A DNA stretch of 64,000 nucleotides, taken from NCBI GenBank assembly GCA_934045905.1, contig OW203764.1:30979629-31043628 (forward strand), given 5' to 3'. The DNA comes from Leuctra nigra (taxonomy: Eukaryota; Arthropoda; Insecta; Plecoptera; Leuctridae). Positions 24,750-64,000 of this stretch are shown piece by piece (position 1 is the first letter of the stretch; the number at the start of each line of letters is the position of its first letter). The translations under genes and the position numbers were made by a program. A model generated the notes under the pieces. The model was not told the origin of the DNA, ran no database searches, and saw nothing but the letters and a program-made list of their open reading frames with translations.

Positions 24750-24813
24750 ATGTTGTTCAAGACTTCCATCATAATCTGCATTCTGCAGGCTCTGACTTCT
24801 GCAGATGACCCAC
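24750..24813 (+). CDS. Gene 1 exon 1: signal peptide
   Basis: ATG at 24750 starts a Lys-containing n-region, the hydrophobic IIICILQAL core and an ALTSA cleavage site, then DDP. The exon ends phase 1 at GTAAGT. The single C left over plus AC (26889) or AT (32031) gives His, followed by Val-Ala-Ile-Asn of the first WSC exon. An almost identical exon begins gene 2 at 53100. Confidence 0.85.
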
Positions 24814-27800
24814 GTAAGTAGTCACTCTAGTTGATGTCAATGTTAAAGTCTGGCAGCTCTGCAGTATGCAGAGATTACCAATTTACACCGACCACTTGTA
24901 GGTTGGGTCAGCGTCAAAAGAAGCCGGCCAAATCCCCATGTTGGAAACTGGTATAGGATCTATTGGAAGTGGTGGTGAGGTCCAGACAAAGAGCAGCCAG
25001 GGTTGGCCTAACCATGTCCTCCCTTGAATTTGCGTTCCCCATCGGGCCGGCCTTCCCCCTCGAGATGGTGATCCCCCTGAAATCGGGTTCTGCCGGCCCG
25101 AATCCTCTACACCCCCCGGTCCATCCCCAATCCGGCCTGGCCTTCCCACCAGTGCTGAACTCCCCCTGATGGGGCCCGTTAGGTCAACCCCCTCCCCATG
25201 TCCTCTTTCCTCTTTGATGTCTTTCTTTGTCTTCTTCGTCTTGTATCTTCTTCATGTGATAACCTCTTCTTGACGCAATGCGCAAAGTTTATTTTTTGTT
25301 TTTTGTTTTTTGTTTTAAATTGATTTTATTTCTTTTGGTTACATTTTTTAAAATTTTCTTTTAAGGTTCATTTTGAAATGTAGATCCTTCTTTATGCTAA
25401 ATTAACCAGCAAGTTTCACGCCAGATAAGGGTGGAATCTCCCCATCCCCCTGCGGATATTCGGCGACTACGTTTTTTGGATAGAGGGTCATATTTGGAGC
25501 CACAACACAGTCTTCTCTGCACAGCACCTTGGCACCCGCGGTGTGTGTGCGGGGTGGGAGGGGGGGGGGGGGGTTAAAGTGCAATGTTTTGTCTCTTTTC
25601 AATATTTAATCAAATATTGAATATTTAATCTTTGTGGCCAAAAGATAACCAATATAGTTATTCTGAATGCATATTTGGAAATGGGATAGAAAGGACATTG
25701 AAAAGTATTTTATTCTTGTATTTTTTGAACAGAATATTTTGTAACACTTTCTTGATTCAGCCAACTGAGCAGTGGACTGTAAGTGTATGGCCACTAATTG
25801 CAATGGCGCACGAAATAATCCATACTGTAAGGACAAAAACATTTTAAACTGTCTCTAAAAGCTATTTTTTTAAAGTGTTTTTATAGTGTGAGCTTTAAGA
25901 GTGTTTTGTGCTACTCTAAGAAATTGTTTATGATTTGACATAGATTATAAAAAAAATTAATGTTTTCCATAAACCGACTAAAAAATACAAATACAAATTA
26001 CAAACAGCGATCATTAGTATCGCTTGTAGTATCGTTGTGATATACTGTGATATTTTGTGTGTTTCTGTGCAATGTATTTTAATGTGTAATATTATTTTTG
26101 TACTTGTGGGCATCAGTCCGATGCAAATAAAGAATTAATAATAAGTAAACACATCAACACACCAACTCAAGTCATAATAAAGTTAAGTCAAGTACATACA
26201 TTACCAGCATTACCATTACATTAGCAATGCATTACATTACATACATTGCCGTCGCCATTAGCCTCGCTGCAAAACAGTGCGACGTTAGCCCCAGACAAAA
26301 AAAAATACATTACCAGATACTCTGGATACTTCAGACGTCGAATTAGTAATCAATTACATATAATTGTATAATGTATATGAACTGCAAATTTAAAAGATTT
26401 GACCTCGGGTGGGATTTGAGCCCACGACATGATTGCCGGTCTAATGCTCTACCAACTGAGCTACGGAGCTCCATATGACTTGTACAAGCTCAGGAAGTGA
26501 TGATGCCAGGAGACCGTGGAAAACATCCACGCTTGACAGCTGAAAAACATCGACCTGATATGGACCTTCTCATGATGCAATGAGCCTCTGTTATGTTTGA
26601 AATGTAGAAATAATCTGACAACCTCAGATGGGATGATGTTATGTATATGAACTGCAAATTTAAAAGATTTGACCTCAATTGGTAGAGCATTTGACCGGCA
26701 TTCTAAAGGTCGTGGGCTCAAATCCCACCGGAGGTCAAATCTTTTAAATTTGCAGTTCATTTACATAACATCATCCCATCTGAGATTGTCAGATTATTTC
26801 TACATTTCATTACATATAATTCCCTGGAGCGCCATATTCCATATAACTGAATGTGTGTTAATCTGGGATGTTTGACTTTCTCCTCCAGACGTCGCGATCA
26901 ACGGCAGAGTGGGCTGCTATCAGGACACCACTGCGCATGTCTGGAACGGTCTGGATGTCTCAACCATCAACACACCTCAGCTCTGCGCAACCCTCTGCGC
27001 AGGTTACGTGTACGCAGGCGTAGAAGCAAGGTGGGTCGGTCAGATGCCACATAGGTAGTTTGATTCATCAAGGGTTTTATGAGGTTCAGAATAGCAAATC
27101 CCTTGAGTTCATTTTAATTTCACAACAAGATGATATCAAGAAAACAAACCTTAAAGATAAATCCAGAAATACGAGGGTAGTCCCAAAAGTACCCGACCTG
27201 ACGTATAAACGGTGGTTATTGTTTAAAAATAATTACTATGGTAGAAATAACCATCCTTATCAGGCTTAAGTTTTAAGTTTGATGACCCTACGTTGTGTAG
27301 TATTTGTTTAGCAGCCATCGGGAGTGAACGTTCTCAGTGACTTTGTAAACATTGGTCAAAAATGGAAAAATTCGGTCAACGTTATGTGATCCAATACTTT
27401 CATTTAAAAGGTCTCAGCCCAACGAATATCAAAGCCGAGCTAGATTCCACTCTGGGGGAGTCTGCTCCTTCGTTTACTACTGTAAAATATTGGGTGGCAG
27501 AGTTTAAACGACGTCGTAGAGGTGCCAAGACGAACATCGCAGTGGTCGACCAAATGAGGTGACAGCGGCAAGGTCATGGTGTCAGTTTTTTGGGATGCGA
27601 GGGGGATAATTTTCATTGATTAACTTCAAAAAGGAAAAACAATCAACGGTGAATATTATGCGAACTTATTGCAGCGTTTGAGTAACGAAATCAAGAAAAA
27701 ACGGCCGCATTTGGCGAAGAAGAAAGTGTTGTTTCATCAAGACAATGCACCAGTTCACACATCCTTCAAAGCGTTGGCCAAAATCAATGAGTTAAAGTTC

Positions 27801-30800
27801 GAAATGCTTCCTCACGCACCCTATTCGCCAGATTTAGCCCCCTCGGATTATTTTCTGTTTCCAAACTTAAAAAAATGGCTCGATGGTAAAAGATTTTGCC
27901 GACAATGAGGAGGTGGAGTCTGCTGTTGATGGCTATTTTGAGGAGCTCGACGGTACTCACTATAAACAGGGTATCGAAGCAATTGAACATCGCTGGGAAA
28001 AGTGTATCGAGCTAAAAGGAGACTATGTTGAGAAATAAAAATATATTTTCAAAAAAAAATTGTGTTTCTTTGTTAGGTCGGGTACTTCTGGGACTACCCT
28101 CGTATATCATTTCAAATCTCATAAAACTCCAACACCTTACCACTTGGCTGGCGTGGAGCGACCACCCAACTTGTTAAAAGATCTAGTGTACGTATTATTA
28201 GTACTCTTGAATTCCTTTATAGGCATGTGCATGACCATAAATATCTGAAATATATTAAAAATATAAATCATTTTTGACAACATGTTTTACTTTGTAACGT
28301 TTGATTCTATGATTTGATCTCTCTAGTACTCAATGCTACTGTGGAGACGCTCTGCCCAACACTGTTCTGCCCCGCATGAGCTGTAACCAGGAATGTCCGG
28401 GCAACTCTACTTACACATGTGGAGGAGCCCTGGCTTTGGATGTTTACAAAGTGCCGCATGAGTTTCGAGGTAATACTAATAATCATTTAACACTCCGTGT
28501 AAAATTAATAACTTGTTGTATCAGACACTAACATTGTCATTGCAGACCCTGACAGTAGCAGCGGTGTCCACCTCGGTTGTTTTAAAGACATCCGGGACAG
28601 ATATCTCAAGCACTTCTTCGACCTGGAGGAGAATTCACCGCAAAGCTGTGTCGACACCTGTGATGGGTATAATTACGCAGGCCTCGAGTACGGGTAAGTA
28701 CACTTTGTTAATAGAATCAGCGGTATATGCTCTGTACATTTTTATTGGCAACGTTTCGCCGACGAGGCAGTCGGCTTCTTCAGGCAGGACTTGACTACTT
28801 GACAAGGGTGCTAACAAAGAAAGAAATATAAAATGTTTCCACAAAATTACTACAACAGGCTATTTTGTCTGATGTTTTCTCTACGCCATCTGGACTTCTA
28901 GCCAAGATGAACTGCAGTATCTCGAAGTGCCTTGGCTCGGCTTCTTGTGTGAGGTCCCAGTGGCGGTGACTTGGCGTCGGGAACGTTACCTCTATTAGGT
29001 GGCTCTGTCGGCGCCACGGTGATTATAGCCATCACCGGCTTCCACGCGTGCGGCAGGCGTATAGAGTCATCCCGCTTGTTCATGTTATGCGGGCGGCGTT
29101 CTATCTCGATCGCCTCCCTGATGGTCCGCCAGCTTTTAGGGGGGACCACGGCGAGGGACTTCATTCCGTCGAAGTTAATGGTATGTCCCTCGGCTTCCGC
29201 GTGCTGGGCGAGGGAGGAGTTGGGCTCCTGGAGACGGACCGCCGCCCTGTGTACACTTTACTGAAGAGATGGAAACTCAAGTCCTTTCATTCATATTATG
29301 AATCAAAAATATCGTGGACTTGGAGGAGAAAATGTTCCGAACTGAGATCTCGAATGGGCGATGTTTTTTATTGGAAGTACCCAAGGAGAAGAACAAGTAG
29401 GGTAAATCCGGGATGGATGTAATAAATAATAATAAAAAAAATCATATTTTCTCGATTACTAAATTAACATAGCTGGTATTTCTTAAGGTGCTGCAAGCGC
29501 GAGCGATTTTCCTGCTTTTTGTAGACAATTTTTGCGATACGATTGGAGACGAAATGTGTTGACCAAATGATTTGAAATTTTAATCGTGATTAGATATAAG
29601 ACAAACTTAGGGTTATCCCTTGGTACATTTTTAATTTTTTGTTTCGTTAATTAGTAATAATTAGTGGATTTTTGGTGTAAAATTTGCTATTTTCTTGTCT
29701 CCCTGGGCGCCGTATAAAATTAAATTTCAAAAATGTGCCAAGGGATAACCCTAAGTTTGTCTTTCATCTAATCATGATTCAAATTTGAGATCAATTGGTT
29801 CACGGGTTTGGTCTCCAATCGTATCGCAAATTTCATAGTTTTGCGCGGTTTTGTTGAATAACCGGCGCCTAATTAACGATGCAATAAGCAAAAATTAAAA
29901 AGTGCTACTAATATACAATCAGACTGATCATCTGAACATCCTGTAAAAGTTACACTCACTTATGGAACAATTTTTCTCTCGCAATTTTCTAAAACGGCCG
30001 AGCGCTAGTATCACCTTAACACACCTGTTCCCAATGAAGGGTACAGGGAAAACGCTATAAGTCAATTTAAAAAAATGAGTTTTATAAGGGTGTCATCTTG
30101 CAGGGATTTTTATGAGCTTTCAGAACATTCCCTCGGTGTTTAGAAATTACTGTCACAAAGTCTTGAAAAAAGCAATTCAAATATCTATCTGTTAAGATTA
30201 AACTTCTTTTCTCAGTTTCATCCGAATGCGACGTATAGCGTCTTCACCTGTACCCTGCAGATATAAGTATTGGCTCTGTCCAACAGGACTAGAACGGCAA
30301 TATAAATCCATGGCCATGCAGTCGGATGCAATATGCGACGGCTGATGGCAGTGAATGCGTGTTTCTTCCAGACGGGAGTGCTACTGCGGATGGATTGTAC
30401 CTCCGGAAGTCCTCGAGCCCTCCAGTTGCCACTACAAGTGTCCTGCGCAACCAAATGTAACGTGTGGCGGGGACTGGGTCATGGATCTTTATATCGTGTC
30501 GAAGTTCAAACCACTTTCAAGTACGATAAAGCAAGTAAAGTAAAGCTACCTTGAATCGGGTTCAAATCTCATGCGGGACGAGACGAGAATCATGTTTCCA
30601 TAAATTGCGACAAGTTGCGATTTGACAGCGATTTAAAGTCTGTAGTGCCATCTACCACCACTATTAGAAACTATAAACAATAAAGTCCAAAAACAGAGTG
30701 TTTCCGGATTACCGGAAACACTCAACATTTTAAATAATAAATAGGCATACAAACTCCAACTCTCATAAGATCGATAAATAGTAAACTGTAAAACTACATA

Positions 30801-33800
30801 CTTTACTGCCCTCTGCTTTTACTTTGAAACCGTTACCTCCCAGGAATGAACCTGAGAAATTGCCAGTTTCATCCTAGGGGTTGCCAGGGAAGAGAAATTA
30901 CTGCTCATTGCTCAACGGCCTCCCAGGTAAGTCCCTGGCAAATCCCTGGTTCATCTCTGGCACATTGACACATCCCAGGTTCTTCTCTAGCACCTCATTG
31001 GCAAAGAAGTGTCTTTAAATGGCAATTTTAGTGAAAAGTATGATTTTTTGAGGGCCAAATGTTTTTTTGTCGACATTATAAATAGGTATGCCATTAGTGA
31101 ACATATTCGCATATACGACGACACTACCACAAAATAGACAAAAAAATACATTTGGCCCTCAAAAAAACATACTTGACACATTTCCCACTTCCCAAATCCC
31201 TGGTTCATCCCTGTTACATGGGGTGGGGGGATATTCGCGTTTTCGGGCTGACCAGATGGCAGCACTGACAATTAGTCTATAACCATCATGACACTGACGC
31301 GCATTGGTTTGTTGACGTTGTTTAGTGTCATGGTGTAATGGCGGAATCGAAGTGTCAGTGAAGGTGTAGTAACTTGTGAGTTGTGTTGCTTACGTTATTA
31401 CTTTGTTATTACTCCATTTTATCATTTCAACCAGATTCCTTTGCTCATTTTCGAAGAAAATACTGCCATTCTGATCATAATGACATTGATAACATATCAT
31501 CAATGAAAAAGGCTGACGAAACGAAAACGATTCCGTTATAGCACTTATACTTTCTCACACTAGAGTGTGCCCCCTTTGCTCTAAAACGCGAATCGCTGGG
31601 ACTATCTGCCACTTCAACATTTTTTTTTAGTTTTGTCATTTGGGAGGTCCTCGCCATGTAACAGGGACCTCCCAAATGCCACCACATTCTTCTCTATAAG
31701 GTTTTGACATTTGGGAGGTCCCTGTTACATGGCGGGGACCTCACAAACGTTCAAACTCATTTTGCAAATCAGTTTGAACATTTGGGAGGTCCCCGCCATT
31801 TAACAGGCACCTCCCAAATGCAATATCCCAAATTAGAAAACTGGAATTGAACGAGAAAGTGCCCGTCACGTACCTTGTTTGCTGGGAAGATACTCGCTGG
31901 ATATATATAGGTACTTACTGTAGGTGTCGAATTGTAATCATTACATATAATTCCCTGGTTTTTATCGCCATATTCCATATAACTGAACGACGTGTTAATC
32001 TGTCTGGGATATGTTTGACTCTCTTCTCAGATGTCGCGATCAACGGCAGTGTGGGCTGCTATCAGGACACCACTGCGCATGTCTGGAACGGTCAGGATGT
32101 CTCAACCATCAACACACCTCAGATCTGCGCAACTCTCTGCGCAGGTTACGTGTACGCAGGCGTAGAAGCAAGGTGGGTCTGTCAGAGGCCAAAGCGGTTA
32201 AGTCACTTAGAGTTATCTTGATTAATCAAGGCCTTTATTTCAGTCCGGTAATACCAAAATTAAATTGTTCTGGATTGACTAATTTTGGATTAAATTAAAC
32301 TGTTTCAATCATTTTGAGGTCTGATTGGCTGTGCCACCAATTGCGTCCAATATTTAGTTGATCCGGCTCAGATTAACAGTTTGGTACCGGCTCTTATATG
32401 AGATTTGGAAAAGCAAATCCATGAGGTTTATTTAATTTTACAACAAGATGATATCAAGAAAACAAACGAAATCTCATAAAACACTAACACCCTTACGACT
32501 TGGCTGGCGTGGAGCGACTACCCAACTTGATATAAAATCTAGTGTACATTTTCAAATACACTCTTGAATACCTGTACATTTATGACTATAAATAACTATC
32601 TGAAGTATGTTTAAAATATAAATCATTTTTGACTACATTTGTTAGTTGTTGCTGTCTGTGAATATCATTTAGAATAAGCGGCTAACAAGGTAACGTTTGA
32701 TCTCTCCAGTACGCAATGCTACTGTGGAGACGCTCTGCCCGGCACTGTTCTGCCCCGCATGAGCTGTAATCAGGAATGTCCGGGCAACTCTACTTACACA
32801 TGCGGAGGAGCCCTGGCTTTGGATGTTTTCAAAGTGCCGCACGAGTTTCGAGGTAATACTAATAATCCCCTTAAAAGGGTTTTGAGTGGTTGAGATTTTA
32901 AACCCCATAAAAGGTTGAGAATTGGACTTTCCCAATTAATTTGTAGTTGAACCTGAAGACTCACGGAAATAATGTCGTGATAATAATGCTCGTCGAGCAT
33001 TATCTGACTTTTTTATGATATTTAAATGCGTTCTACCAATTTGCCCTAATTAGTATGCAGGTCGTACGAGTGAGCACACTTGTATGAAAACTTAATTCGG
33101 GATAAGAAAACGGCTGACTATAAAATTCGGTATTTTTTTGTGCACATCCGGTCCGGAATTATAACAATTGGCAGGGCCAGTTGTTTATGGTTTCCACGAT
33201 AAACGCGAAATGTTTAGAAACATGAATTTTCTGTCATATCTTTACGTTTCATACACTCCTGATTCCTAATATATGTATCTTTTCTCGCGAATTTTCGCGA
33301 AATTTGTGTTTTGACGCGATATTGACGAATTCTCGCGATTTCACGCGATTTTGTACCAAACCTACGTGTTTTGCAACATTTCCCGATTCCGAGTATATAT
33401 TTTACGAAATATCCTCGATCTGTGTCTAAAGTACCACTAAATAGAAAGAATCACACTGTTTTCTTCAGTGGCGGCTATTACAGTGTGCAAGGTGTGACAA
33501 TTGCACACCTGATCATCCAAGAAAATTATTTAAAAGTGCTCCCTAATCCAGGAAGTAGGAAGTTAAATATTGTGTCTAATCATTTTGCTCTCCAAAAGAC
33601 GTAAAAATGCATCAATTTCAAACTAAAGATACAAAAAAATCCGGGGTTATGCGCCCCGGCCCCGCATCTGCTGGGGGCTCTCCTCTTAGAGTTCTTACTT
33701 CTACGTCCTTCTATGTAATTGAACACCAGTTGTAAAGCCAAATAGCCGCCACTGGTTTTCTTCGTAAGCCAGCTGTCAGTGCCAGCCAAAGAGTGTATGG

Positions 33801-35571
33801 GGGTGCCAGCTCATTGGCTGCTGAGCATGGAATGACGTATCTACATGACCTTGAACAGGGTTGCGCATGCGCACGCGCTGAGTCTGGCTAGTGAGAGGGG
33901 GTTGGTAGTATTGCGGCTCGATCGCGGGTCATATTTCACATTTATTCTTACAAAAATAATTTTTTCCTATTTCACCACCAATCGCGAAAATTAACATAAT
34001 TATCACCACCAATTCACCACTTTCAGAATGTTGAAAACGAATTTTGGCTTTTTTTTATCACCACAAACAACTGGCTCTGACAATTGGTAAGTCTGCTATT
34101 TTAAAATGTTATGCCATTATTATTTAATAAGGAAATAGATAAATACTGACATTAATATAATAATTGTGAGTATGTGTCTGCTTCGAGAAAGCAGTGTAAG
34201 GACTCCCCCTCCACAAGGGTATGTCCGTTGCAGGCTGCCGTCATAAACTTTATAATCCCTAATAAACTTAGATGAACCTTTTTGGTTTTTGATCATATAA
34301 AAATATGTTTACGAAATTTTTACGGTCATAAAAAACAAGAATATATCAACAGTTTTCGGTTGAAATTGTTGGTGCGGTTTAAACATTAGAATAGGTAATG
34401 TAGGAATAACGAATTCGTTTCCCCATAAAAGCCATATAAAAATCTCAAACTTTGAAAACGTTAAATTAAAGGTTAGGTCGGTAAGGTATACCTTTTTTGA
34501 TCTTATTGTAGATAACACAATTAGGAACAAAATAAAATGGTTTTGGAAAAATTGTGTTGGTAGTTAAGCTGGCGCTGGTTCATCCTTAAGAAACACTCCG
34601 TGTGAAATTAAAGAACTAATTCCATGAAACACTTGAATTGCATTGTCATTGCAGACCCTTACAGTAGCAGCGGTGTTCACCTCGGTTGCTTTCAAGACAT
34701 CCCGGACAGATATCTCAAACACTTCGTCATTCTGGAGAAGGAGAACTCACCGCAGCGCTGTGTCGACACCTGTGATGGGTATAATTACGCAGGTCTCCAG
34801 TACGGGTAAGTTACACTTTACATATTACTTTCCTTCTTATCCGAAGCCATTATTACTTAGTGGATTTTGAAAAATAATTTTAAGGATGATCTAGACCACG
34901 TGACCACCTACGTCATGCCCTGCAATCTTCAAAACGAATCAGACCGCCATTACATTTTTAAGAAGAGAAGATGGGTTCACTTTCGTTCGAATAACTTCAT
35001 AATTACCCTAGCTACAATAATTCGGTCAAGGACTGAGGTGTTAATAAAAGATCGCTCTCAATGTTTCATATGACACTTTAATAATGAAAATGCTTTACTG
35101 AACTAAAAAGTGGGTTTTCACTACGGCAAAACGTCGGCAAAACGTCGACCACGACACGCAAATCAAGTCTCATTAAACTGGACAATACGAAAATATTAAA
35201 CACATACCTGCAGTTATGATCTATACGATATTCCTTATTTTTCACGACGATATTTTCATCTAGTGGAGCGGTCGCTCCACCCAGCCAAGTCGTACTGTAC
35301 GCTCACAGTCACTCAACATACCGTAAATGCCTAATAAACCGAGGAGCAGACCAAACACTTTTACTGTAAGCAACAACATGGCATTTTCGGCCTACTGGAT
35401 CATAAAATTGGAAAATCTCACATTGTTGTGAAATATCTTAATTTCGAGCTATGGCCCACCCCACCACATATACCAAATTTGGGAACAATAGGATATGCCA
35501 TTTGCGAGCTAGAGGGCCGTGAAAACAGTGAAATTACATCACTTTCATCTTCTTCTTCTTCTTCTTCTTTA

Positions 35572-35611
<40 letters not shown>

Positions 35612-38600
35612 CAGATATCAGGAAACACCGCTATCACCGCCACAGCCTAAACGGCTGAACCGATCGATCTGAAATTTTTACCACATGTGCACTTTTGGCG
35701 TCTGAGGTGCCTTTTTATAAAACCAACCGGAAGTCGCCATTTTGAAACCGGAAATGACGTCATATCTCGAAACCGGCTGAACCGATCGGAACGAAACTAG
35801 CGTCAAACTATTCGGACGGTCATATATATGAAAATACAATAGTCTAAACAGAAATGTACTATTACTGAAACCGGAAATGACGTCATAAAAATGAAAAATC
35901 AGACTGTAATCACCTCTTACTACAATAACTACTTATTCACAAGGTTTATAATGATACAAAACATTTATATAAACAAATTCTACGTGGAGTGTTTTCAGCC
36001 GCCATTTTGATAACCGGAAGTGATGCCATATCTCGAAAACGGCTGGACCGATTGGAACAAATCTTTCGCTTTTCTTCATGGAATATCACTTTAAGCATAT
36101 TTTGGTACCAAACGCAACTTTTCTTAGAAACCAAATTGGAACTGGCTTATTTTTTTAAAGGAATTAGTCATTGTTGTTTCGATATGTGTTACAAATTGTT
36201 TAAATAAACTAAAAAAATGTGTGATATCCCCATAAAAAACACTCCGTGTAAAAATACCAGCCCAGTCTCTTTAACTATAAAAAAAATAGAAGAAATCTAA
36301 AAATTCAGCACTGAAAAGTAGTGATATCAAAAAATTGGCCAAGTCAAACTTAATTTGAAAAACCAAAATATACTTGGCGCATCGTTTTTAAGGGCATTAT
36401 AGGTATATTTTATATATTTAGGTACATATGATTTTTGGCATATACTTCTATACTAGATTAATACCCGATGCGCCAAGTATATTTTGGTTTTTCAAATTAA
36501 GTTTGACTTGGCCAATTTTTTGATATCACTACTTTTCAGTGCTGAATTTTTAGATTTCTTCTATTTTTTTATAGTTAAAGAGACTTGGCTGGTATTTTTA
36601 CACGGAGTGTTTTTTATGGGGTATATTTTACAAGCACAACACATCTCCAAATTACTTCAACGAGCCTACATATTACACCGTCTTGCTCCTCGTATTTAAG
36701 TTTTGTCTACTGTCAGGTTAGAACCACTGCCTTCTTTATTATGACTTTTCGAAGCAAGGTCAGAAGTTTCCAAGGTTGTTTCTTTGGCGTGACAGTAAAA
36801 CAAAACTTAAATACGAGGAGCAAGACGGTGTAATATGTAGGCTCGTTGAAGTAATTTGGAGATGTGTTGTGCTTGTAAAAGATATGAAAATATCGTCGTG
36901 AAAAATAAGGAATATCGTATAGATCATAACTGCAGGTATGTGTTTAATATTTTCGTATTGTCCAGTTTAATGAGACTTGATTTGCGTGTCGTGGTCGACG
37001 TTTTGCCGACGTTTTGCCGTAGTGAAAACCCACTTTTTAGTTCAGTAAAGCATTTTCATTATTAAAGTGTGATATGAAACATTGAGAGCGATCTTTTATT
37101 AACACCTCAGTCCTTGACCGAATTATTGTAGCTAGGGTAATTATGAAGTTATTCGAACGAAAGTGAACCCATCTTTTCTTCTTAAAAATGTAATGGCGGT
37201 CTGATTCGTTTTGAAGATTGCAGGGCATGACGTAGGTGGTCACGTGGTCTAGATCATCCTTAATGTTGGTATAAGATGGAAGGCTGAAGACTAGCAGGCT
37301 AACATCTACCCGGTTCATTTTTATTATGTATCAAACAAATACTTGAGGTAACTGAGTTCATGAGGAATAATTTAAGGTGTATGAGTTGCAGATATAAGTA
37401 TTAATGACTCTGTGTAACAATTAGAACGGCAATTTAAATCCGATGCATAGTATGTACATTTATGTTTCTTCCAGAAAGGAGTGCTACTGCGGATGGATTG
37501 TACCTCCGCAAGTCCTCGACCCCTCCAGATGCTACTACGAGTGTCCTGGACAACCCAATGTAACGTGTGGCGGGGACTGGATCATGGATCTTTACATCGT
37601 GTCGAAGTTCAAACCATTTCCTAGTAAGATAACTTCAAGTAAAGTAAGCTCCCATAAATCGCGACACATTGCGATTTGACAGCTTTTTGAAGTCTGTATA
37701 GTGCCAATCACCATGTGATAAAATCCTCAAATATTAAAGTCCGCTCATACATAGGGTCTGCAACGCCCAGAGATGGTCCAAACAGAAGTCCATGCCAAAT
37801 TAGCCAACAGGAGTCGCTCGCTCAATTCATAATTCTTCATGCCTTCGCTTGAGGCTCCACGTTCAGAATCGTTGAAATACGCTATGTATTGACTCTAGCT
37901 GCCCTGGACAACACGTGCATCGCATCAATCGACCCCATCGCCAACTCGCGTGTCACCTACGAGTACCGTCCCGAACTCAAGAGCTCGTGGATGGAATCAC
38001 TGAAACTCTGTCTGTACAGCACCTGCGTCAACTGTCATATGATATGGAACTACGACACACTTGTTGAGTCAGACAAACAACTCTGTGGCGGTGGAGTGGT
38101 GCCCTTCAACGTACTCCACACTGATATAAAATTTTATAAATATAGGGACAGCATGACAATACTGGTAAATTGCATATCACATTATTCAATTCAAATGGCA
38201 TAGTCTTTAAAATGCACCAAAATGAATTACCTTTAGGAACATTCCTTGGGGGGCGAACCCCCCAAACCCCCTTCATTTCCTTCGAATTTCATTTTTTAGA
38301 GTTTACCCATAGATTTTTTCAGGACTGCACAACTGATTAAAAAATTCGAAAAGTGGAAAGATAACCATTATGATTACTCTTCTTGTTATATTGAAACACC
38401 AAGTATCCAGCTTGTAATAATTGATACCAGAATGACACTGGCTATAGTAGTGGAATGAATGCCTTTTTGATTTCACTTGGGACCTGGGAATCTGGGAAAC
38501 CTGTAAACTTGAGAGGTTTAATGTATAAAATTTGAAAATAAACTAATTTCGTTAAAGCTGATTATCACATTTGTGCTCGAGTGTTTAGTAGATTCCTGTT

Positions 38601-41475: not shown

Positions 41476-41494
41476 AATTCGAACATTTTGAACG

Positions 41495-47350: not shown

Positions 47351-47385
47351 TAGATCACATCCTTGTTAGATGCCATCCTATCTGT

Positions 47386-49713
47386 TTGATTAAATCAGCT
47401 ATCTTTACTACTAAAATTACAGATCACTACATGGTACTTGCTGATATAAATTTTTTTGATAACAGACTAATTTCGGGCAACACAGGCAAATTACCTGGTA
47501 ATGTTTCCATTGATTCAAAAACTAAATTAGATGAAATAATTCTAAGTAGAGAACTTAAATTATGTAATTGGAAATCTCTTCTCTCAATTAATAATTGCAA
47601 TGATTTATATGAAGCTATCATTCTTAAGTTTAAGGAATGTTATGATTTTGCATCGTTTCAAGCGCCTTTAGTTGTTAAGAAGGCTAGAAATCAAAAGCCT
47701 TGGATTACACGGGATATACTATTTAAATTGAAATCTAGAGATGCTTTGTTCAGGAAGTGGAAGAATTGTAATAATTGCTGTATAAAGGAACTGTATAGGA
47801 AGGACTACGTTGGCTATAGAAATGTTGTTAATAAGGAAATCTTGAAAGCTAAGCAGACCTTTTTTAAGAGCTCTATAACACAATCCAAAGGGTGCATGAA
47901 AAAAACATGGCAGGTTATAAATAATTTCATTGGAAAGCGAGGAAGGAATTCTGTGGACGAGGTGATCGACAGGTATTTGGCCAGGGGCAAGTCTTATCAG
48001 CAGGTGGCCGATAATTTTGTTAATATTTTTATCAATGAAGTGGCGCAATTAAAACATGTTTGTAATACAGTAACTTACGATCACAACACAATATTTAATT
48101 CAGAAGCACAGTCAATGCGAATGCCTTTCATCTGCGCAGGTCTAATAGAATATATAATTGGTAAATTTGATGTCAATAAACAACCTGGATTGGATGGCGT
48201 CCGTGTGCGGGATCTTGTCCTTGTAGCAGATGCTATAAGTCCTGTCATTGCAAAGTTATGTAATTTATCCTTTAAAAGCGGGATAGTGCCTTCTAAATTA
48301 AAAACAGCTATTGTCCGCCCTATTTATAAGAAGGGTGACCATAATAGTTTTTCTAATTATCGTCCAATAGCGATTCTGTCAATCATAGATAAAATAATGG
48401 AGCGTTGCATATCACACTATCTAACCGAATATATAGAGAAATTTAATATTATTAGTAATTTACAGTTTGGTTTTCAAAGGAATAAAGGTACAAATGACCT
48501 CCTGCTGCAATTTGCAAATTTTGTGAATACTAAACTGAATAATAATGAGATTGTTTTGGCTCTGTTTATTGACTACTCAAAGGCGTTTGATACTATTAAC
48601 CATGACAAGCTCATTATTTTACTTGAAAAAATTGGCGTTAGAGGTCCTATGTTAACTTGGTTTATAGATTATTTGCATGAACGATTAATTACTGTTAAAT
48701 TGAAAGATGTCTTTAGTGTTTTAAAGCCTGTAAATTCGGGTGTTCCGCAAGGTTCAATATTAGGACCCCTTCTGTATCTCATTTATGTTAATGATATGCT
48801 CCTTTGTCTAGAGAAGTGCCATATATTTATGTATGCTGATGACATACTAATTTTATCATCCGACTTTAATTTCGATGTTGCAGAATCTTCTTTACAGTCT
48901 GATTTCAACCAACTTTTAAAGCTGTCACATGATCGGGACTTAATTATTAATGCTGACAAGACCAAGATCTTGCACATTTGTACACCTCAAAATCAGTTTA
49001 GAGACAGTTCAGTCAATATAATTTGTCATTCGGCGACTTGTTTGCACACTCTGAAGTACGGCAATCCTTTCCAAATTTGTGATTGTGTTATTAAAATTAG
49101 TGTTGTTGAGCAGATTATTTATCTTGGGTTAACTGTGGATAGATTTTTTACCTGGAGACCCCATATCGAAAAGGTTTGTAGTAAAATTAGATCTTGCGCG
49201 TTCTCCATTTATCGCCTGCAATTTGTTTTGCCTTTTAAATTATTACGTTTAGTGTATTCCGCACTTGTTGAATCGCACTTGTAATATGGGTTGTTAGCTT
49301 GGGGAAATGCTTCCGATTATTTCGTCCACAGGATTGTCGCTTTGCAAGATAAAATTATTAGTACAATTGTTCCTCATCACCTAAAATTCAATTTAGATTA
49401 TAATATTTCCAGATATTATTTAGAATGTAATTTTTTACCTGTGCAATTACTTTATAAATATCGTGTAATTTTAAAGTATTATTTCAGTGATGAACACAAA
49501 AAATTACAAAATCATCCAGTTAATACTCGCTTAGCATTGCTTCAAAAGTATTATATTCCTCCTTGGTGCAACAAGAATGGCAAACGTAGACTTGATTATA
49601 TTGTACCAATTACTTTCAACTTACTTCCTGATAATCAAAGATCTCATGAATCCTTCTCTAAACTTAAAGTGTCTCTGAAATCATGGCTTTTCTCGACTAT
49701 GTCTACTGATTAG
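47386..49713 (+). pseudogene. LINE reverse transcriptase, interrupted by a nonsense codon
   Basis: The piece opens with ITDHYMVLADI (endonuclease end), then RT boxes: IVRPIYKKGDHNSFSNYRPI, LQFGFQRNKGTNDLL, LALFIDYSKAFDTINH, SGVPQGSILGPLLYLIYVND and MYADDILIL. A TAA at 49282-49284 breaks the conserved SALVESHL-YG.. segment; the frame then stays open to 49713 (YGLLAWGNASDYF ... WLFSTMSTD). One codon change disables an otherwise complete domain, so the copy is fairly young. The type is CR1/jockey-like. Confidence 0.9.
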
Positions 49714-50981: not shown

Positions 50982-50989
50982 GTTACGTC

Positions 50990-51628: not shown

Positions 51629-51636
51629 GTTACGTC

Positions 51637-52249: not shown

Positions 52250-52500
52250 ATATTAAGGGGGGTCTTCGGGAGGGGTCGAACTAAGGGACACGGCCCGGGA
52301 GAGTCTAGCACTGGTGGGAAGGCCAGGCCAGAATGGTGACAGACCGGTGGGCGGGAGGTTTCGAGTTCGAGCCGGTGGGACCCGATTGGGGGGAAGTCCG
52401 TATCGAGGTGGGGGCCGGCCCGAAATTCAGGGGAGGGCATGGGTAGGTCGACCCTGACTGCTCTTTGTCTGGATCTCACCACTGACTGTTCCGGCATGGG
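52250..52500 (-). repeat. GC-rich ~240-bp dispersed repeat, copy 3
   Basis: An inverted copy of the repeat at 17385-17625 and 24955-25205, next to CTGCTCTTTGTCTGGA as at 24985. Its insertion place relative to gene 2 differs from that relative to gene 1, so the copies are independent insertions. Confidence 0.65.
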
Positions 52501-53099: not shown

Positions 53100-56000
53100 A
53101 TGTGGTTCAAGACTTCCATCATAATCTGCATTCTACAGGCTCTGACTTCTGCAGATGACCCACGTAAGTAGTCACTCTATAGTTGGTGTCAATGTTAGAA
53201 GTTTGCAGCTCTGCAGTATGCAGAGATTACCAACTGAATTGCATTGAATTTACACCGAACACTTGTAGATACTTTTCCTTTGTCTTCTTCGTCAATTTCA
53301 ATTCAATTTTAATATAATTTTATTTCTTCCAAAAAAAAAATAATGTTTACATACAATTTTCCTTAAACCATACGCTTTCCTTGCACAACCTTTACACATT
53401 ACATAATTACATATTACATTTACCTTTTACATATTGTTACATTATATTATGAATCAGTAGTACAACAGTGTTGAGATAAAAGGAGACACAGCGAAAAAGG
53501 AAACACAAAGAAGAGCGTGGATAAGAGAAATAGTTTACAAGGGGTTGAGGGGGCATTTTATTTTGGAAGCAGCCAGCATAATGGAAAACCATTGTGCGCT
53601 GGCATACATTCTTTTACATTTCTAGAAATCAAAGCTAGTCGTCAGCTCAACCACAGATTATGAACAACAAAAATATTATGTAAAGTATAGAAGATATTAA
53701 GAACAATTACTCGATTACGGAAATTTGTACGTCTTGTATCTTCTTCATGTGATGACCTCTTCTTGACGCAATGCGCACAGCTTTTATTTATTTTTTGTAT
53801 TTTTTTGTTTGTAAAGTACTTAATTTGTATTTGTATATTAATTTGTATGGTTTTGTATTTTTTGTATGTAAAGTACTTAATTTGACAGTTTATAATATTA
53901 GAGTAGATTTGTTACAAATACAAAAGGATATGGATTGATATTTAGGTAAGTTTCAGTAAATTATTTATGCACAAAGAGCAGAAGATGTAATTTTGGACAT
54001 GATTAGGGCAATGTAACGTCGTCTATTTTAATAAATTGATTGAGTGCGCGCGCAAGCGTTCCAGACACACTGACAGGCAGACAGATCTGGGTAATCATAC
54101 GGTAAGGGGCAAATATTTTTTTGCTTGTTGTATGTTATATGGTTTCACTAATCTTTGGTATAAATTACAACAAATTCTCATTCCTATCACGTAACTCTGG
54201 AACCCCCTTAATCTGGGATATGTTTGACTCTCTTCTCAGATGTCGCGATCAACGGCAGTGTGGGCTGCTATCAGGACACCACTGAGCATGTCTGGAACGG
54301 TCAGGATGTCTCAACCATCAACACACCTCATCTCTGCGCAACTCTCTGCGCAGGTTACGTGTACGCAGGCGTAGAAGCAAGGTGGGTCTGTCAGAGGCAG
54401 TTTGAATCATCAAGGATTTTATGAGGTTTAGAATAGCAAATCCCTTGGGTTTATTTTAATTTCACAACAAGATGATATCAAGAAACAAACCTAAAGATAA
54501 ATCCAGAAATATATCATTTCAAATCTCATAAAACTCCAACACCTTATACCTTTTACGACTTGGCTGCCGTGGAGCAACCATCCTATTTGTTAAAAGATCT
54601 AGTGTACACTGGCGGCATTAAGTTGTTTATAATCTCTCTCTGCTCCATATAAAAACATGTTTATGATATGGGTCAGAGAGAGACAGAGTGAAACGATCAT
54701 ATTGCCGCCACTGTACATTTTAATACACTCTTGAATACCTGTGCATTTATGACCATAAATATCTGAAATATATTTAAAATATAATTCATTTTTGACAGCA
54801 TGTTTTACTTTGTAACGTTTGATTCTATGATTTGATCTCTCTAGTACTCAATGCTACTGTGGAGACGCTCTGCCCAGCACTGTTCTGCCCCGCATGAGCT
54901 GTAATCAGGAATGTCCGGGCAACTCGTCTTATACCTGCGGAGGAGCCCTGGCTTTGGGTGTTTACAAAGTGCCGCACGAGTTTCGAGGTAATACTAATTA
55001 ATCCCATTAAGAAACACTCCGTGTGAAATTAATAACTTGTTCTATCGGACACTTACATTGTCATTGCAGACCCTGAGAGTAGCAGCGGTGTTCACCTCGG
55101 TTGCTTTAAAGACATCCCGGACAGATATCTCAAGCACTTCGTCATCGTGGAGGAGAACTCACCACAACGCTGTGTCGACATCTGTGATGGGTATAATTAC
55201 GCAGGCCTCGAGTACGAGTAAGTTAAACTTGACATATTCATTTCATTCTTAATATGTATCAAAAATGTACTTGAGGTAATTGAGTTCACATGAGGAATAA
55301 GTTAGAGTGTATGAGTTGCAGATATAAGTACTGACTCTGCAGCGGATTCGATGCATAGTATGTACAGTCACATTCAAAAGAAGCCGGTCAAATCCCCATG
55401 TTGGTATATGGAAAACCGGTATAGGAAGTATGAAATGTGGCTGTACACTCACCTCCAAGTGTTCCAACCGTTTTATACATTGTGCTCTTATGAGAAACAC
55501 AGTATGAACACTTGGAGGTGGGTGTACATGTGTGTTTCTTCCAGAAAGGAGTGCTACTGCGGATGGATTGTACCTCCGGACGTCCTCGAGCCCTCCAGTT
55601 GCCATTACAAGTGTGCTGCGCAACCCAATATAACGTGTGGCGGGGACTGGATCATGGATCTTTACATCGTGTCGAAGTTCAAACCAGCTCCAAGTAAGAG
55701 AAAGCAAATCAAGTGAAGCTACTCTACTTTACAGGTTGACGCGCCGAGCTTGAAAGATGAACATGGTTAATGTTTCAAGGTCGACGCTTCGGCGTGTCCG
55801 AGCTTTGCCACCTGATTGGCCGGCGTCGAAGCGTCAGCGCGCCCGAGCACTCGTGTAGCCGAACGTAAACGAAGTAAAGCTCCCATAAATCGCGAAAAGT
55901 TGAGATTTGACAGCGATTTGAATGAAGTCTGTAGTGCCATCTATAACCATTTATCAAAATCCTGAAATATTAAAGGCCACATACTACATACTGGCATAAG

Positions 56001-59000
56001 ACCGATAATTCAGTAAACTGTCAACTACTTAAACTCGCCTCTGTAGTTACTTTGACGTATACCTACGGAGTTAACTTTTTCGCGATTGTCACACGACACT
56101 TGTGCGACTCCGATTCCTTTATTTTTCGTTGTTTTCCAATGTAAAATGGCGAAACTGAAGCACTTGCGATTCATGGGAACCGTATACACTTTCGTAAGAA
56201 TACGGGGACGTCTAGATAGCAAGTCTTTGATAGTAGACTAAAGAATTTCATCAGATGGCAACCCTTTTTTGAATGTCAGTACTGGTCCATTTCTATACTA
56301 TCTACTGCATTGATGACGGTGCGTCATGTCATTACATGAAATAAAGGCGGCATATACCGTATTATGATCAAAATTCCCAGATTTCGATATGCTTTAACAT
56401 TGTCACGTGACAGTCTGGGCGTGACCTTGAGTCGAATGAATGAAAATCCATGGATAACAAAGCCCAGGCTTTTGAATTGGGGCAAAGTGGGCACAGGTTT
56501 GAGCTCGTTTGTTGACGCGGCAAGTTTGATTTAACCCGTAAATCCTATGGTGACGTCACACGCCCAACTCGCCCAATAGTGGAATGCACCCAAAGTTATT
56601 AGCAACTAGCGGGCCGGATTTGAACTGTCACCCATCCAAGTACGGGACAGCGCGCTCTATGTATCCTCTGTGATCTTACGAGTACCATGGTTTCCAATTA
56701 ATACCAGCTGATGGGCCTGAACAAAAAGACCGGCAAAAGTTTCAAGAGTCGATTCACAGATATCTCCCTAAAAACACTTAATGTAAAAATTACAACCAAT
56801 ATTCTCCTCCCCCTGAAGAAATAAAGGAGATTTAAAAAATCGTAATTATATTAAAAAATGGGAATCCAAAACATGTGAATCCAAAAAACACTACCAACCA
56901 CCTACAATTATGTTTATAATGACTTATTTTTTATTTTTTAAAAGTAATTGTGATGTAGAGAAATAATAATCCTGTAAACAATAATGTGACAAAATGTAAT
57001 TGCGTAAACACAACACTACGGTCGGAGACAGTCGAAGATGAACCCGCTATAGCGAGTTGCCGGCCTATACCTGGCCATGCTAAAGTGGGTTCATCTTTGT
57101 CTGTCTCCGACCGTAAATCCACGAGCGGCTAATGGCCCGACCGAAGTTCCCGACCTAAGTGAAGTGCCACAATTTTGTATTTCTCTTCTCCCTATTAAAA
57201 TCTCTTCATGCCTTCGCTTGAGGTTCCACGTTCAGAATCGTTGAAATGCGCCATGTATTGACTCTAGCTGCTCTGGACAACACTTGCATCGCATCAATCG
57301 ACCCCATCGCCAACTCGCGCAAAACCTACGAGTACCGTCCCGAACTCAAGAGCTCGTGGATGGAATCACTAGAACTCTGCCTGTACAGCACCTGCGTCAA
57401 CTGTCACATGATATGGGACTACGACACACTTGTTGAGTCAGACAAACAACTCTGCGGCGGTGGAGTGGTGCCTTTCAACGTACTCCTCACTGATATGCCA
57501 TATCATAGCTACCGGGACAGCATGACAATACTGGTAAATTGCATATCATCATTATTCAATTCAACTGGTAGTCTTGAAAAAGCACCGAAATGAATGACCT
57601 TGAGGAAAATTTCCTTGGGGGCGAAACCCCCAAACCCCCTTCATTTCCTTCGAGTTTCAGTTTTTTAGAGTTTACCTATATATTTGTTCAGGACTTCCAC
57701 TGATTGAATAACTCGAAAAGTGGAAAGATAACCTTCATGATGGCTCTTCTTGTTCGATTGAAACACCATGTATCCAGCTTGTAATTGATACCACAATGAC
57801 ACTGGCTAGTAGTGGAATGTCTTTTATGATTTCACAGTGAAACCTTGAGACCTGGGATAGGTCTTCTTCTCTTCTTTAACTTGTATTAGGATACAATCCT
57901 GTTCAAAACCAATTTAAAACGTTTTTGGACTAAGCTCTTCATTCTAAGGAGTCCTTCCTTCTCTTGTTTGGACGTCCTATTCTTCTCTTTCCTCTGGGCC
58001 GATTGTCCCGTGCAACCCTAACTAATCGCCCTTGATCCATCCTTGAAATGTGTTCATCCCAAAGAAGTCTTCTTTCCTTAATCCAATCAGCCACATCTGT
58101 AACTCTGCAGGTGTCCCTTATACTTTCATTCCGCATCCGATCCAGTCTAGTTTTACCGAATATTCTTCTTAAGACTTTCATTTCGGTTACCTGCGACTGG
58201 TGTCTTGTCTTAGATGTGTCGGGTCTTGTTTCAGAAGCATAGGATATAATGGGTCTTATTACGCTCTTATATATCTGCGACTTCGCATCCTGCCGCAAGA
58301 ACTTGTTCCTCCATATAACATCACCCAAACATCCCGCTATTCTGTTGGCCTTCATGATTTGTCCATTCACCTCCTTTTCTATGTGTCCATAACTGGTGAC
58401 AGTCGTTCCCAAGTACTTGTATTCTAAAACTTGCTCAATAATGTCACCATTAACCACTATTTTGCATCGAATGGGCTCTTTAGCAATCGTCATTGTCTGC
58501 GTCTTATTTGTAGAAATCTCCATATTATACAAACTACAAGCATTATTAAATCTAAAAACCAATCCCTGTTAGTCGTCCTCGTTATCACCCTACAAACACT
58601 GGGAGGTCCCTGGACGCGTCCTAGGCCGTCCCAGATGGGCGTACGGGCCTGCCCAGGGACCTCCCGTCTTATGGGTGATTAGCATGGAGTGAGACTCCCG
58701 GGGCCTGCCACTGGGAATAAGCCCGGGCGGCGGCCTGGGCCGTCCCATGACGCCCGCGCGGGAGGTATGGGCCGTCCCTGGACCCTCCCGGGCGGCCCGC
58801 GCGGGAGGCATAGGCCGGCCCTGGCCCCCGCCCGGGCGGCCCGCGCGGGAGCAGCTGCTCGCTCTGTAGCCCCCTCCCCCTACGCACATTCCATAACGGT
58901 CACGTGCTAGCTTGCTAGGTACACTCTCATTCAAAATGCAGTACCTACAAAACGTGCCTCTGATCCAGACACGTGCATATAGGCACTAATTTTGAATGCG

Positions 59001-62000: not shown

Positions 62001-64000
62001 AAATAATTGCTGTATATCTAAAATCCTTGATAAAGTTAAATAATTAAATATAATGAAAATATTTACCACTCTGCTCGGTTCGGTTCTTAATGTTTCGGCT
62101 CGGTTTGACGATACAGCTTGGTTCGCTCGCAGGACGAATACGCGCTTTGTTTCTGGAGTTCAATATCTTAATAGCCTATTTTCTTCCAGAGTAGATTCAC
62201 CTTTAACAAGTAACATTATTAAAACTGCAGTAGGTGCCTTGGTAGGTATGTGGGATGGTTATTGGTTAATGTAGGGTGAAAATATTCCCAAAATAGGCGG
62301 AGGTACGTACTAGGTACCTACAGGTAGGGTTCCTACTGACTACTACCACTGATATGTATAGACTACCACGCCAAGCAAACTGTTTACCTACTTTATTTAT
62401 TTTATAAATACCTAAACTACCTAGTTACCTAGGTCCTACCTAGTTGGAAATTTTACTTTGCATAAATTGCTACATTTCAAAAATGTACATGTGAGGTTAA
62501 TGTTTACTGAACATTGGTCACACTACCTATTGGTTTATTAGTATCCCCAGCATACAAAACTAAAGTAACAACGATTAATGCCTGGATACTTATGTAGTTG
62601 TGATGAAGACTCACCTTCAATGGGTTGTATGGCTCTGTGATGAAAATCCAAACAAAAGAGGCACAACAAAACTGTAATTATTTCACGATTTGTGTCACAT
62701 TAAATGGTTTGAACTGAGACAAACTATTCAGCAGTGAACACGCATTCACGGACACAGATAATAATTGAAATCACATTCAAAATCACTCAAAAGGACGTAA
62801 ACTACACACTCATGACACTCTGTAAAATATCAACAAACGTCAAACGCCGCGTTTGAAATGAAGAAGGGAGAACGGAAACAAGTTGATTCACGAAGATGGC
62901 CGACTGCCGAGTTCATAAAAGAAACTTTACTAATAACGTTTAAAATGGTATGAATACTTTGCTTTGGAATTGTAAACATATTTATTCTTAAATCAATATA
63001 TCCATGTGAAATGTAGATGTAATTATTATAGAAATGAAGTTATAAATATGAAAAAAATAAGTCATTAGAGCAGCTCAAATTCAAACAGTCGTAGCGCCCG
63101 CGCGGGCCGTCCCTAGCCATTCCCGGGCGGGACCAAGACGGGACATTCCTAGAAATTTTACAGCCAGATAAAACGGATCGGTTGGGCTCCGTTGGGCAGG
63201 CCCAGGGCATGCCCTAGTAGTTCCCGCCCGGGACGTCCCACTTGGGCGCTAGATGGGCAGAAGCCCGGGCCGCCCAGTGTTTGTAGGGCAGCTATTAATA
63301 TAGCGTCGTCTGCATAACAAATAATATTTATCGTACTTCTACCCAAACTGTATCCTTTCATTCCTCGAACAGACTTTATAATTTCATCCATAATCAAGTT
63401 AAAAAGAAGCGGGCTTAAAGAATCTCCTTGCCTTACACCCTTGTTCATATCAATTGGTTCAGAGAACTGTCCATTACATTTGACCTTAATTTTACTATTG
63501 CTGTAGATATCTTGTATAACTCTAATGATGGACTTTGGAATGTTCCTTTGAATGGGAAAGGTGTAATAAATAAATGATAATAAACTAATTTCGTTGAAGC
63601 TGATTTACACATAAAGAGGTAAAGATTTATGTTCGAATGTTTAGTCGATTCCTGTTCTTGGATTTCGAAATGGAATGAGGAATAAATGAAACGTTTTGTG
63701 AAACGTTCTATGCAATTTGAATTTATTTGATAATAATTGTGTGTTCTTATAGACACACGATTATGAAGAAGACTCGGAAGAGCAACTCGCTTCTGCTATC
63801 AACTTGACATCGGGCGAGATCTCGATCGTGAATCTAACTGACGCCCTGTTCCAATGCGTCGTCTGCTCACGCACTAACTTCAGCAAGAATTACATGACGT
63901 TCCCTTGGTCTCAGAAATACACCGAGAGCGACACGCCAGGCTACAACATCATCTTGACAAGTCAGTCTGATGGCAAGGCCAAGGAGTACAGTGAGTTGGC
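53100..64000 (+). CDS. Gene 2: paralogous WSC adhesion GPCR, 5' part (cut by window end)
   Basis: Exons: 53100-53163 (signal peptide), 54240-54381, 54845-54987, 55070-55217, 55545-55693 (one WSC pair), 57268-57533 (Cys-rich module) and 63753-64000+ (ectodomain exon, incomplete). Phases match gene 1 exactly and all reading frames are open. The proteins differ by a few residues per exon (TEHVWNG for TAHVWNG, NSSYTCGG for NSTYTCGG, EYEKEC at the third/fourth junction). One WSC cassette is present instead of two. The GPS and membrane exon would lie beyond 64000. The large last intron carries a LINE fragment and a 4.7-kb nested element. Confidence 0.87.
53164..54239 (+). other. Gene 2 intron 1
   Basis: Shorter than its gene 1 counterpart. 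It shares the CTTCTTCATGTGAT..TGACGCAATGCGC tract (53735-53780) with 25250-25290. The rest is AT-rich with TTTTTTGTATTTTT-type low complexity and no gene. Confidence 0.55.
54240..55693 (+). CDS. Gene 2 WSC cassette (exons 2-5)
   Basis: Four exons encode two WSC modules with GCYQD, CATLCAGYVYAGVE, QCYCGD, CPGN, YTCGG and GCFKD, CVDICDGYNYAGLEY, ECYCGW, NITCGGDW. Cys spacing is identical to both cassettes of gene 1. The first exon sequence is closer to cassette 2 of gene 1 (GSVGCYQD, NGQDV) than to cassette 1. The donor after the third exon leaves GA rather than GG, changing Gly to Glu at the junction. Confidence 0.86.
54607..54713. repeat. 107-bp MITE, TA-flanked
   Basis: Ends CACTGGCGGCA / TGCCGCCACTG are inverted, with inner CTCTCTCTG / CAGAGAGAG arms. 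TA flanks both sides; TGTACA is an alternative 6-bp reading. The matching introns of gene 1 (28184, 32540) read CTAGTGTACATT or similar without the insert. Confidence 0.8.
56625..56715 (-). pseudogene. Diverged 5S rRNA-derived sequence
   Basis: On the minus strand: CCATGGTACTCGTAAGATCACAGAGGATAC-type order (shown in part) and GTACTTGGATGGGTGAC, the conserved end of 5S rRNA. It is more diverged than the copy at 42905-43015 and not at a paralogous position. Confidence 0.6.
57018..57117. repeat. Palindromic MITE, ~100 bp
   Basis: ACGGTCGGAGACAGTCGAAG and GATGAACCC at the left pair with GGGTTCATC and GTCTGTCTCCGACCGT at the right. There is no counterpart in gene 1. Confidence 0.75.
57268..57533 (+). 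CDS. Gene 2 Cys-rich ectodomain exon
   Basis: Same length (266 bp), phases and Cys pattern as 37899-38164 of gene 1. Differences cluster at the end (LLTDMPYHSYRDS for LHTDIKFYKYRDS), perhaps a surface loop that is free to vary or under selection. Confidence 0.86.
57939..58587 (-). pseudogene. LINE reverse transcriptase, C-terminal part
   Basis: About 207 open codons carry the thumb and C-terminal region common to arthropod endonuclease/RT LINEs (TKTQTMTIAKE-like start, YKYLGTTV, RRLLWDEHISRMD, KRRIGRPNKRRKD). A stop lies just upstream. The upstream half is at 63290-63556. Confidence 0.85.
58690..58870. repeat. GC-rich subterminal repeats of the 4.7-kb element
   Basis: Repeated CCCGGGCGGCCCGCGCGGGA and GGCCGTCCC units. 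The Pro/Arg/Gly-rich ORFs on both strands are artefacts of composition. Related units sit at 63085-63135 near the other end. Confidence 0.75.
60063..61831 (-). CDS. Possible three-exon small gene inside the 4.7-kb element
   Basis: On the minus strand: ATG at 61831 with an in-frame stop just before it, 18 codons to a GTAAGAG donor after 61776; exon 61390-61192 (FYRFTVNLPCSYSRVDLIAY ... MIQNSLM) with TTTTTGTAG acceptor and GTAAGC donor; exon 60381-60250 (KYVFKCIHFLEKL ... ETACQTHCQ); then TTGCAG directly before a TGA at 60065. Phases 2, 0 and 0 agree at each junction, giving about 127 residues. An upstream non-coding exon could end at a GTGAGT donor near 62619. The protein is not recognised. 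The acceptor of the third exon is weak, and RNA evidence is lacking. Confidence 0.3.
63753..64000 (+). CDS. Gene 2 ectodomain exon, truncated by window end
   Basis: THDYEEDSEEQLASAINLTS at the start matches THQYEEYSEEQLASAINLTS of 38773-39268 in gene 1, in the same phase. CVVC and NFSKN are retained. The exon should continue about 250 bp beyond the window. Confidence 0.88.

Follow-up and report, generated by a model that had tools for sequence, protein, structure and literature searches.

A 64,000-nucleotide stretch of the Leuctra nigra genome (the window; assembly contig 3, 30979629-31043628) carries two tandem genes, termed here gene 1 and gene 2, that probably encode adhesion G protein-coupled receptors (GPCRs). 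According to this reading, both proteins begin with a signal peptide, expose a glycan-sensing ectodomain built of WSC pairs, and continue through an uncut stalk into an ADGRG-like seven-transmembrane (7TM) domain, and both are members of a large family. The two genes lie on the forward strand, with gene 1 complete and gene 2 mostly inside the window.

Gene structure of the tandem pair

Gene 1 (24750-41475, +) comprises 12 exons that join into a single frame of 1276 amino acids with no internal stops. All of its internal boundaries are AG/GT, and the phases match across each junction. A signal peptide exon is followed by eight exons forming four WSC domains, a Cys-rich exon, an exon encoding 165 amino acids and a last exon of 1838 bases. 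The signal peptides of both genes were called by eye, and that of gene 1 falls below the 19-residue hydropathy threshold. The exons of gene 1, with the evidence for each, are as follows.

24750..24813, +, exon 1: signal peptide (by eye) with the start codon; phase-1 GTAAGT donor; gene 2 carries a near-identical exon
26889..27030, +, exon 2: WSC 1, first half; AG/GT and phase; Pfam WSC on the joined protein
28327..28469, +, exon 3: WSC 1, second half; splice sites and phase; Pfam WSC
28546..28693, +, exon 4: WSC 2, first half; splice sites and phase; Pfam WSC
30372..30520, +, exon 5: WSC 2, second half; splice sites and phase; Pfam WSC
32031..32172, +, exon 6: WSC 3, first half (duplicate of WSC 1); self-BLAST, phase, Pfam WSC
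32710..32852, +, exon 7: WSC 3, second half; self-BLAST, phase, Pfam WSC
34655..34805, +, exon 8: WSC 4, first half; self-BLAST, phase, Pfam WSC
37475..37623, +, exon 9: WSC 4, second half; self-BLAST, phase, Pfam WSC
37899..38164, +, exon 10: Cys-rich, non-WSC by profile test; 79 of 88 amino acids shared with gene 2; two pieces in the contig 6 paralog
38773..39268, +, exon 11: conserved 165-amino-acid stretch ahead of GAIN; 92% identity to gene 2, 54% to the contig 6 paralog
39638..41475, +, exon 12: HormR-like start (by eye), GAIN, GPCR proteolysis site (GPS) with HLD, 7TM, stop; ADGRG6 in the PDB at 7.6e-20; seven hydrophobic segments; at least 73 genome matches

Gene 2 (53100-66493, +) is intact, with eight exons and 1081 amino acids. 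Its parts follow the same order as those of gene 1, with two WSC domains instead of four. The gene was followed in the assembly to its end 2.5 kb beyond the window, given here in window coordinates.

53100..53163, +, exon 1: signal peptide (by eye) with the start codon
54240..54381, +, exon 2: WSC 1, first half
54845..54987, +, exon 3: WSC 1, second half
55070..55217, +, exon 4: WSC 2, first half
55545..55693, +, exon 5: WSC 2, second half
57268..57533, +, exon 6: Cys-rich
63753..64000, continuing to 64248, +, exon 7: 165-amino-acid stretch, crossing the window end
64656-66493, +, exon 8: 7TM exon, past the window

The initial annotation, made from the window alone, had proposed a secreted-start receptor with WSC modules, a Cys-rich part, GAIN/GPS and seven membrane segments. 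All these parts were found in one phase-consistent gene, twice. It had also described the two tandem genes as near-identical; the tandem pair is present, but its members differ in WSC number. From the Cys-rich exon to the end, the two genes diverge by 0.034 nonsynonymous (dN) and 0.120 synonymous (dS) substitutions per site (dN/dS about 0.3), and over the 7TM exon by 0.028 and 0.101, respectively. These values indicate that both genes are coding sequence under constraint and that purifying selection acts on the 7TM exon. A tblastn search of the flanking sequence, covering about 60 kb on the upstream side and about 100 kb on the downstream side, revealed no third copy.

The search of the joined gene 1 protein with Pfam WSC (PF01822), which had been suggested as a check, matched four stretches, scoring 195 bits (1.5e-58; cut-off 27.8). 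Each WSC domain is split over two exons. Among solved chains, the WSC part weakly matched 7pz2 (2e-4), which we take to be a yeast Wsc domain, and 9n3u (1.6e-3). Self-BLAST showed that the WSC pair has been duplicated within gene 1; the pair starts and ends in phase 1 and can therefore double without breaking the frame. When the WSC pairs were compared with one another, the dN/dS ratios were 0.40, 0.46 and 0.57, which indicates looser constraint than in the part from the Cys-rich exon to the end. In gene 1, the exon that opens WSC 3 (32003-32189) is 98.4% identical to gene 2 (54212-54398); over the two WSC stretches that follow, identity is 82% and 87%. This uneven identity may reflect gene conversion.

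The Cys-rich exon was also considered as a fifth, decayed WSC domain; this was rejected, as it scored no better than shuffles against the WSC profile. The 165-amino-acid exon gave no Pfam match and no PDB match of note. A SEA fold was raised for it by eye and from the helix-strand pattern in a model with a predicted local distance difference test score (pLDDT) of 36, without PDB or Pfam support. By eye only, the last exon looks HormR-like from its start as far as the third cysteine.

The GAIN/7TM exon and its GPS

The last exon was compared with solved structures using phmmer. The best match was ADGRG6 (7.6e-20), followed by ADGRG2 (2e-14) and then by ADGRG4, ADGRV1 and ADGRF1, and all 20 matching sequences were adhesion GPCRs. 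With a profile built from three paralogs, the match to ADGRG6 reached 1.5e-23. The alignment to ADGRG6 begins at exon residue 212, ahead of the GPS. Eleven 19-residue hydropathy windows exceeded the threshold and merged by overlap into seven segments. An AlphaFold model of low confidence (mean pLDDT 43, fair over the 7TM region only) was searched with Foldseek, which placed ADGRG2 first, with other class B, F and A GPCRs behind.

Gene 1 thus carries the features of an adhesion GPCR (class B2) as far as they can be predicted: a class B-type 7TM, a GAIN domain (fold predicted) with a GPS before the first transmembrane segment, and a long modular ectodomain. Judged by its best matches, the 7TM is ADGRG-like. 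Exon residues C270, W273, W280, C285, C300, H302 and L303 are invariant with three relatives, as are cysteines 399 and 477, which we take as the bridge between the third transmembrane segment (TM3) and the second extracellular loop (ECL2). Regarding the polycystin-1 family, no Pfam match to PKD/REJ or PLAT was found, and the stop codon follows soon after the seventh segment. Frizzled was tried as the 7TM family and rejected, because it gave a sub-cut-off Pfam match only and the solved-structure matches were adhesion GPCRs throughout.

The initial annotation had named the lack of a WSC or 7tm_2 match as refuting. Pfam 7tm_2 missed the exon of gene 1 but matched the homologous, 55% identical exon of a paralog on contig 6 (C6:38.49 Mb) over the cut-off, at 1.2e-13. 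Pfam GPS, also proposed as a check, was not reached in gene 1, whose GPS is degenerate.

Self-cutting adhesion GPCRs are described as cleaving at H-X-S/T (PMC13062082). The GPS reads CSHLD in both genes, so that H-L-D stands where the three aligned relatives have H-L-T. In total, 15 GPS copies were read, namely those of genes 1 and 2, of the contig 6 paralog, and of 12 more chosen at 44-55% identity. None of them has S, T or C at position +1, which is occupied by D, N, E or G. The His at position -2 is kept in 6 of the 15 copies, and where the usual C-x-C has its first Cys, every copy has F or Y. As the Ser/Thr of H-X-S/T is absent from all copies read, self-cleavage is predicted to be lost. 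Shortly after the GPS, a TTRGYFKIYF-type stretch is similar in all 15 copies, with changes, and is set off by seven inserted residues relative to the three aligned relatives. This segment is the putative place of the tethered agonist.

The receptor family in the genome

The genome search with the 7TM exon gave 187 first-look candidates, of which 72 were scored. At least 73 matches were found, corresponding to 70 loci on 11 contigs after neighbouring fragments had been joined, with 21 of these loci on contig 11. The identity of the matches ranged from 37% to 100%, the copy in the window included, and 56 of the 73 covered nearly the full query. Some matches are fragments or contain stops; in at least one case, a single stop is the gene end. 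On contig 11, scores are tied within each of two pairs, which may have arisen by recent duplication or be assembly copies.

A second genome search, with WSC half-exons, gave 218 candidates, of which 150 were scored, and at least 59 matches. A WSC match was present on the same strand within 40 kb upstream of 19 of the 70 7TM loci. When the WSC set was shifted at random 2000 times (with the sizes of contigs 1, 5, 9 and 13 estimated), the mean was 0.23 loci and the maximum 3. Control placements likewise gave low counts, with a WSC match downstream on the same strand at 3 of 70 loci and on the opposite strand at 1 of 70. Seen from the WSC side, 27 of the 59 matches are followed on their own strand by a 7TM locus no more than 45 kb downstream, and 32 are not; other WSC genes therefore seem to be present in this genome. 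The WSC matches without a 7TM locus lie on contigs 1, 3, 4, 6, 7, 9, 10, 11 and 13, with clusters on contig 4, and may be WSC genes that lack a receptor part.

The paralog on contig 6 (minus strand, about 17 kb read) shows the same order of WSC, Cys-rich, 165-amino-acid and 7TM parts. Two of its WSC half-exons are about 76-77% and 64-69% identical, and two are weaker (E 7e-4 and 0.003). Its Cys-rich exon is split in two (E 0.003 and 6e-12), and the 165-amino-acid and 7TM exons are 54% and 55% identical, respectively. The tandem pair is two members of a large dispersed adhesion GPCR family in this genome. The expansion that the initial annotation had suspected from the pair was borne out well beyond it, with about 70 7TM loci, at least 19 of them with a WSC match upstream.

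Several other features were observed in the window. Upstream of gene 1, at 14774-18281 (+), lie exons of Trypsin type (1e-5 and 5.1e-9) and Sushi type (8.3e-5), possibly belonging to immune-type modular serine proteases. An open frame of a long interspersed nuclear element (LINE), 1012 amino acids long and with endonuclease and reverse transcriptase domains, is located at 2939-5974 (+), and a LINE reverse transcriptase lies between genes 1 and 2 at 47344-49713 (+). A tandem array with a unit of roughly 120 bases was found by self-BLAST at 12450-14437. Two introns of gene 1 contain insertions: a mariner-type transposase fragment at 27624-27905 (+) between the halves of WSC 1, and inverted repeat arms at 34880-37263, 99.5% identical over 380 bases, between the halves of WSC 4, likely a young insertion. 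Rfam gave two tRNA-type matches only; a tRNA-like match at 26401-26470 (-), with 34.9 bits, is perhaps part of a short interspersed nuclear element. NCBIfam gave no match.

Proposed mode of action and comparison with known receptors

Yeast WSC sensors bind glycans. Judging from the WSC domain, the WSC pairs would bind surface glycans outside the cell, such as microbial, dietary or matrix polysaccharides, and WSC proteins at a Daphnia parasite-resistance locus are likewise predicted to bind glycans (PMC9894429). Since no self-cutting is expected of the GAIN domain, the ligand or a pull would be passed on through the intact stalk. The hydrophobic TTRGYFKIYF-type segment after the dead GPS would then act on the 7TM as an in-line tethered agonist, and the 7TM would couple to G proteins. 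Differences in WSC number and sequence could produce receptors with different glycan tastes. Uncut adhesion GPCR function has a precedent, because the peripheral mechanosensory role of fly Cirl needs no autoproteolysis (PMC13197933).

Some observations count against this interpretation. The joining of the WSC exons to the 7TM exon is predicted from splice sites and phases in genomic DNA, and both ligand and signalling are inferred. The GPS was read in 15 of the 70 loci. The 7TM exon of gene 1 itself misses both Pfam 7tm_2 and Pfam GPS. In the AlphaFold model, residues 1-328 are under 50 pLDDT, which makes the model unusable over GAIN and too poor to place the stalk. Finally, 51 of the 70 7TM loci have no WSC match within 40 kb. 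This last count says little, because the WSC search was insensitive: of the 12 WSC half-exons known from the tandem pair, it recovered only 3. These 51 loci may have missed WSC exons, have other N-termini, or be fragments.

Alternatively, the proteins could be adhesion or scaffold molecules that do not signal. In that case, the WSC pairs would fasten cells or cuticle to glycans, and a 7TM bearing a dead GPS would serve as a membrane anchor. The loss of the nucleophile in all copies read and of the first GPS cysteine would suit such a role, as would the presence of WSC in insect glycosyl hydrolase 16 (GH16) proteins and, as reported, in a spittlebug foam protein (PMC12911473). We consider this explanation unlikely, given the purifying selection on the 7TM exon, the invariance of the two cysteines of the presumed TM3-ECL2 bridge, and the ability of Cirl to function in mechanosensation uncut.

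An expansion of insect ADGRX (Mayo/Ketchup), with some members having gained WSC domains and the family acting on glycans from food or microbes in the gut epithelium, appears slightly less likely still. Mayo and Ketchup represent the insect GAIN-7TM type with gut and Malpighian expression (PMC13197933), and the 51 loci without WSC at the threshold used would fit this origin. However, the GPS of Mayo and Ketchup is canonical and cleaved (PMC13197933), and the solved-structure matches favour ADGRG, though no ADGRX was seen in those lists. It is very improbable that the WSC exons and the GAIN/7TM exon are two separate neighbouring genes carried along together: fewer than half of the WSC matches (27 of 59) have a 7TM locus downstream and WSC genes without a 7TM seem to exist, but the phases fit across every junction of both genes, and order and strand recur on other contigs.

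A more far-reaching proposal can be made, although only tentatively: in an arthropod lineage, the approximately seventy loci, many with WSC glycan-binding ectodomains, could have evolved to encode cleavage-dead adhesion GPCRs that form a combinatorial pattern-recognition or contact-chemosensory system, each with an uncut stalk and a permanent in-line agonist. With about 70 related loci in one arthropod, the expansion is as large as that of a sensory or immune family, and among the literature compared only sponges match it. The family would represent a sizeable, hitherto unstudied group of surface sensors, which its WSC ectodomain would tie to glycans. All 15 copies read combine a lost GPS nucleophile with a conserved segment following it, which provides a natural test of whether adhesion GPCR signalling needs cleavage.

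Related proteins were sought in a database of 5.8 billion sequences, using a search that needs shared five-residue words (at most 100 used) and may miss distant orthologs. The GAIN/7TM part matched two proteins when the full query was used and one when the exon was searched by itself; all three are adhesion GPCRs, from a snail, a shark and one further assembly, and a WSC domain is listed in none of them. When this part was compared by BLAST with 123 database proteins, only these three adhesion GPCRs matched. The WSC part matched 266 proteins. Among the best 120 of these, the precomputed Pfam lines contained 7TM or GPS in none, a count that may miss such proteins, since a 7TM like that of gene 1 would also escape the Pfam line. 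The top animal matches to the WSC array among the matches listed were WSC-GH16 proteins of Lycorma delicatula (P0004, 33% identity) and Bemisia tabaci (P0005, 30%). In contrast to genes 1 and 2, they carry a GH16 domain, have no GPCR domain listed, and gave no BLAST match to the GAIN/7TM part.

ADGRG6, ADGRG2 and ADGRG4 resemble genes 1 and 2 in the 7TM, by sequence and fold, and ADGRG6 also in the GAIN-GPS region. They differ at the N-terminus, which in these receptors is of the CUB, pentraxin or SEA type and is not known to include WSC; Pentaxin was found in the shark G2-like protein (P0002). Kremen, WSCD and yeast Wsc1 also expose WSC domains to the outside, in single-pass or enzyme architectures that are not known to include GPS or 7TM. 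Polycystin-1 combines WSC and GAIN/GPS in one membrane protein (PMC9672506), but its WSC stands among leucine-rich repeats, a C-type lectin and other parts, and it has eleven spans and no adhesion GPCR 7TM.

Five adhesion GPCRs are described in Drosophila (Remoulade, Flamingo, Cirl, Mayo and Ketchup), none of them with WSC in that description, and Remoulade likewise has an irregular GPS, H-R-T (PMC13197933). The same review gives close to sixty adhesion GPCRs for zebrafish, and the word WSC does not occur in the first 300,000 characters of this large 2026 text. It is also absent from a 2025 catalogue of GPCRs of animals' relatives and from an amphioxus survey, the latter providing a precedent for Cys-rich domains shuffled into adhesion GPCRs. 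Among sponges, Amphimedon has 40 Adhesion GPCRs and 72 genes with 7tm_2, and the survey text does not contain the word WSC (PMC4302439). Halichondria panicea has 57 GPCRs with GPS, and a figure legend covering GPCRs, SRCRs, lectins, NLRs and TIR receptors names WSC, carried either by a GPCR or by another class (PMC8242945). This sponge is a possible distant precedent for WSC-GPCR joining. No protein joining WSC to a 7TM was seen among the listed database proteins, and the accessible open-licence literature gave only the sponge legend as a possible case. Apart from this possible precedent, the combination of WSC with an adhesion GPCR in Leuctra nigra is a new variant within a large expansion.

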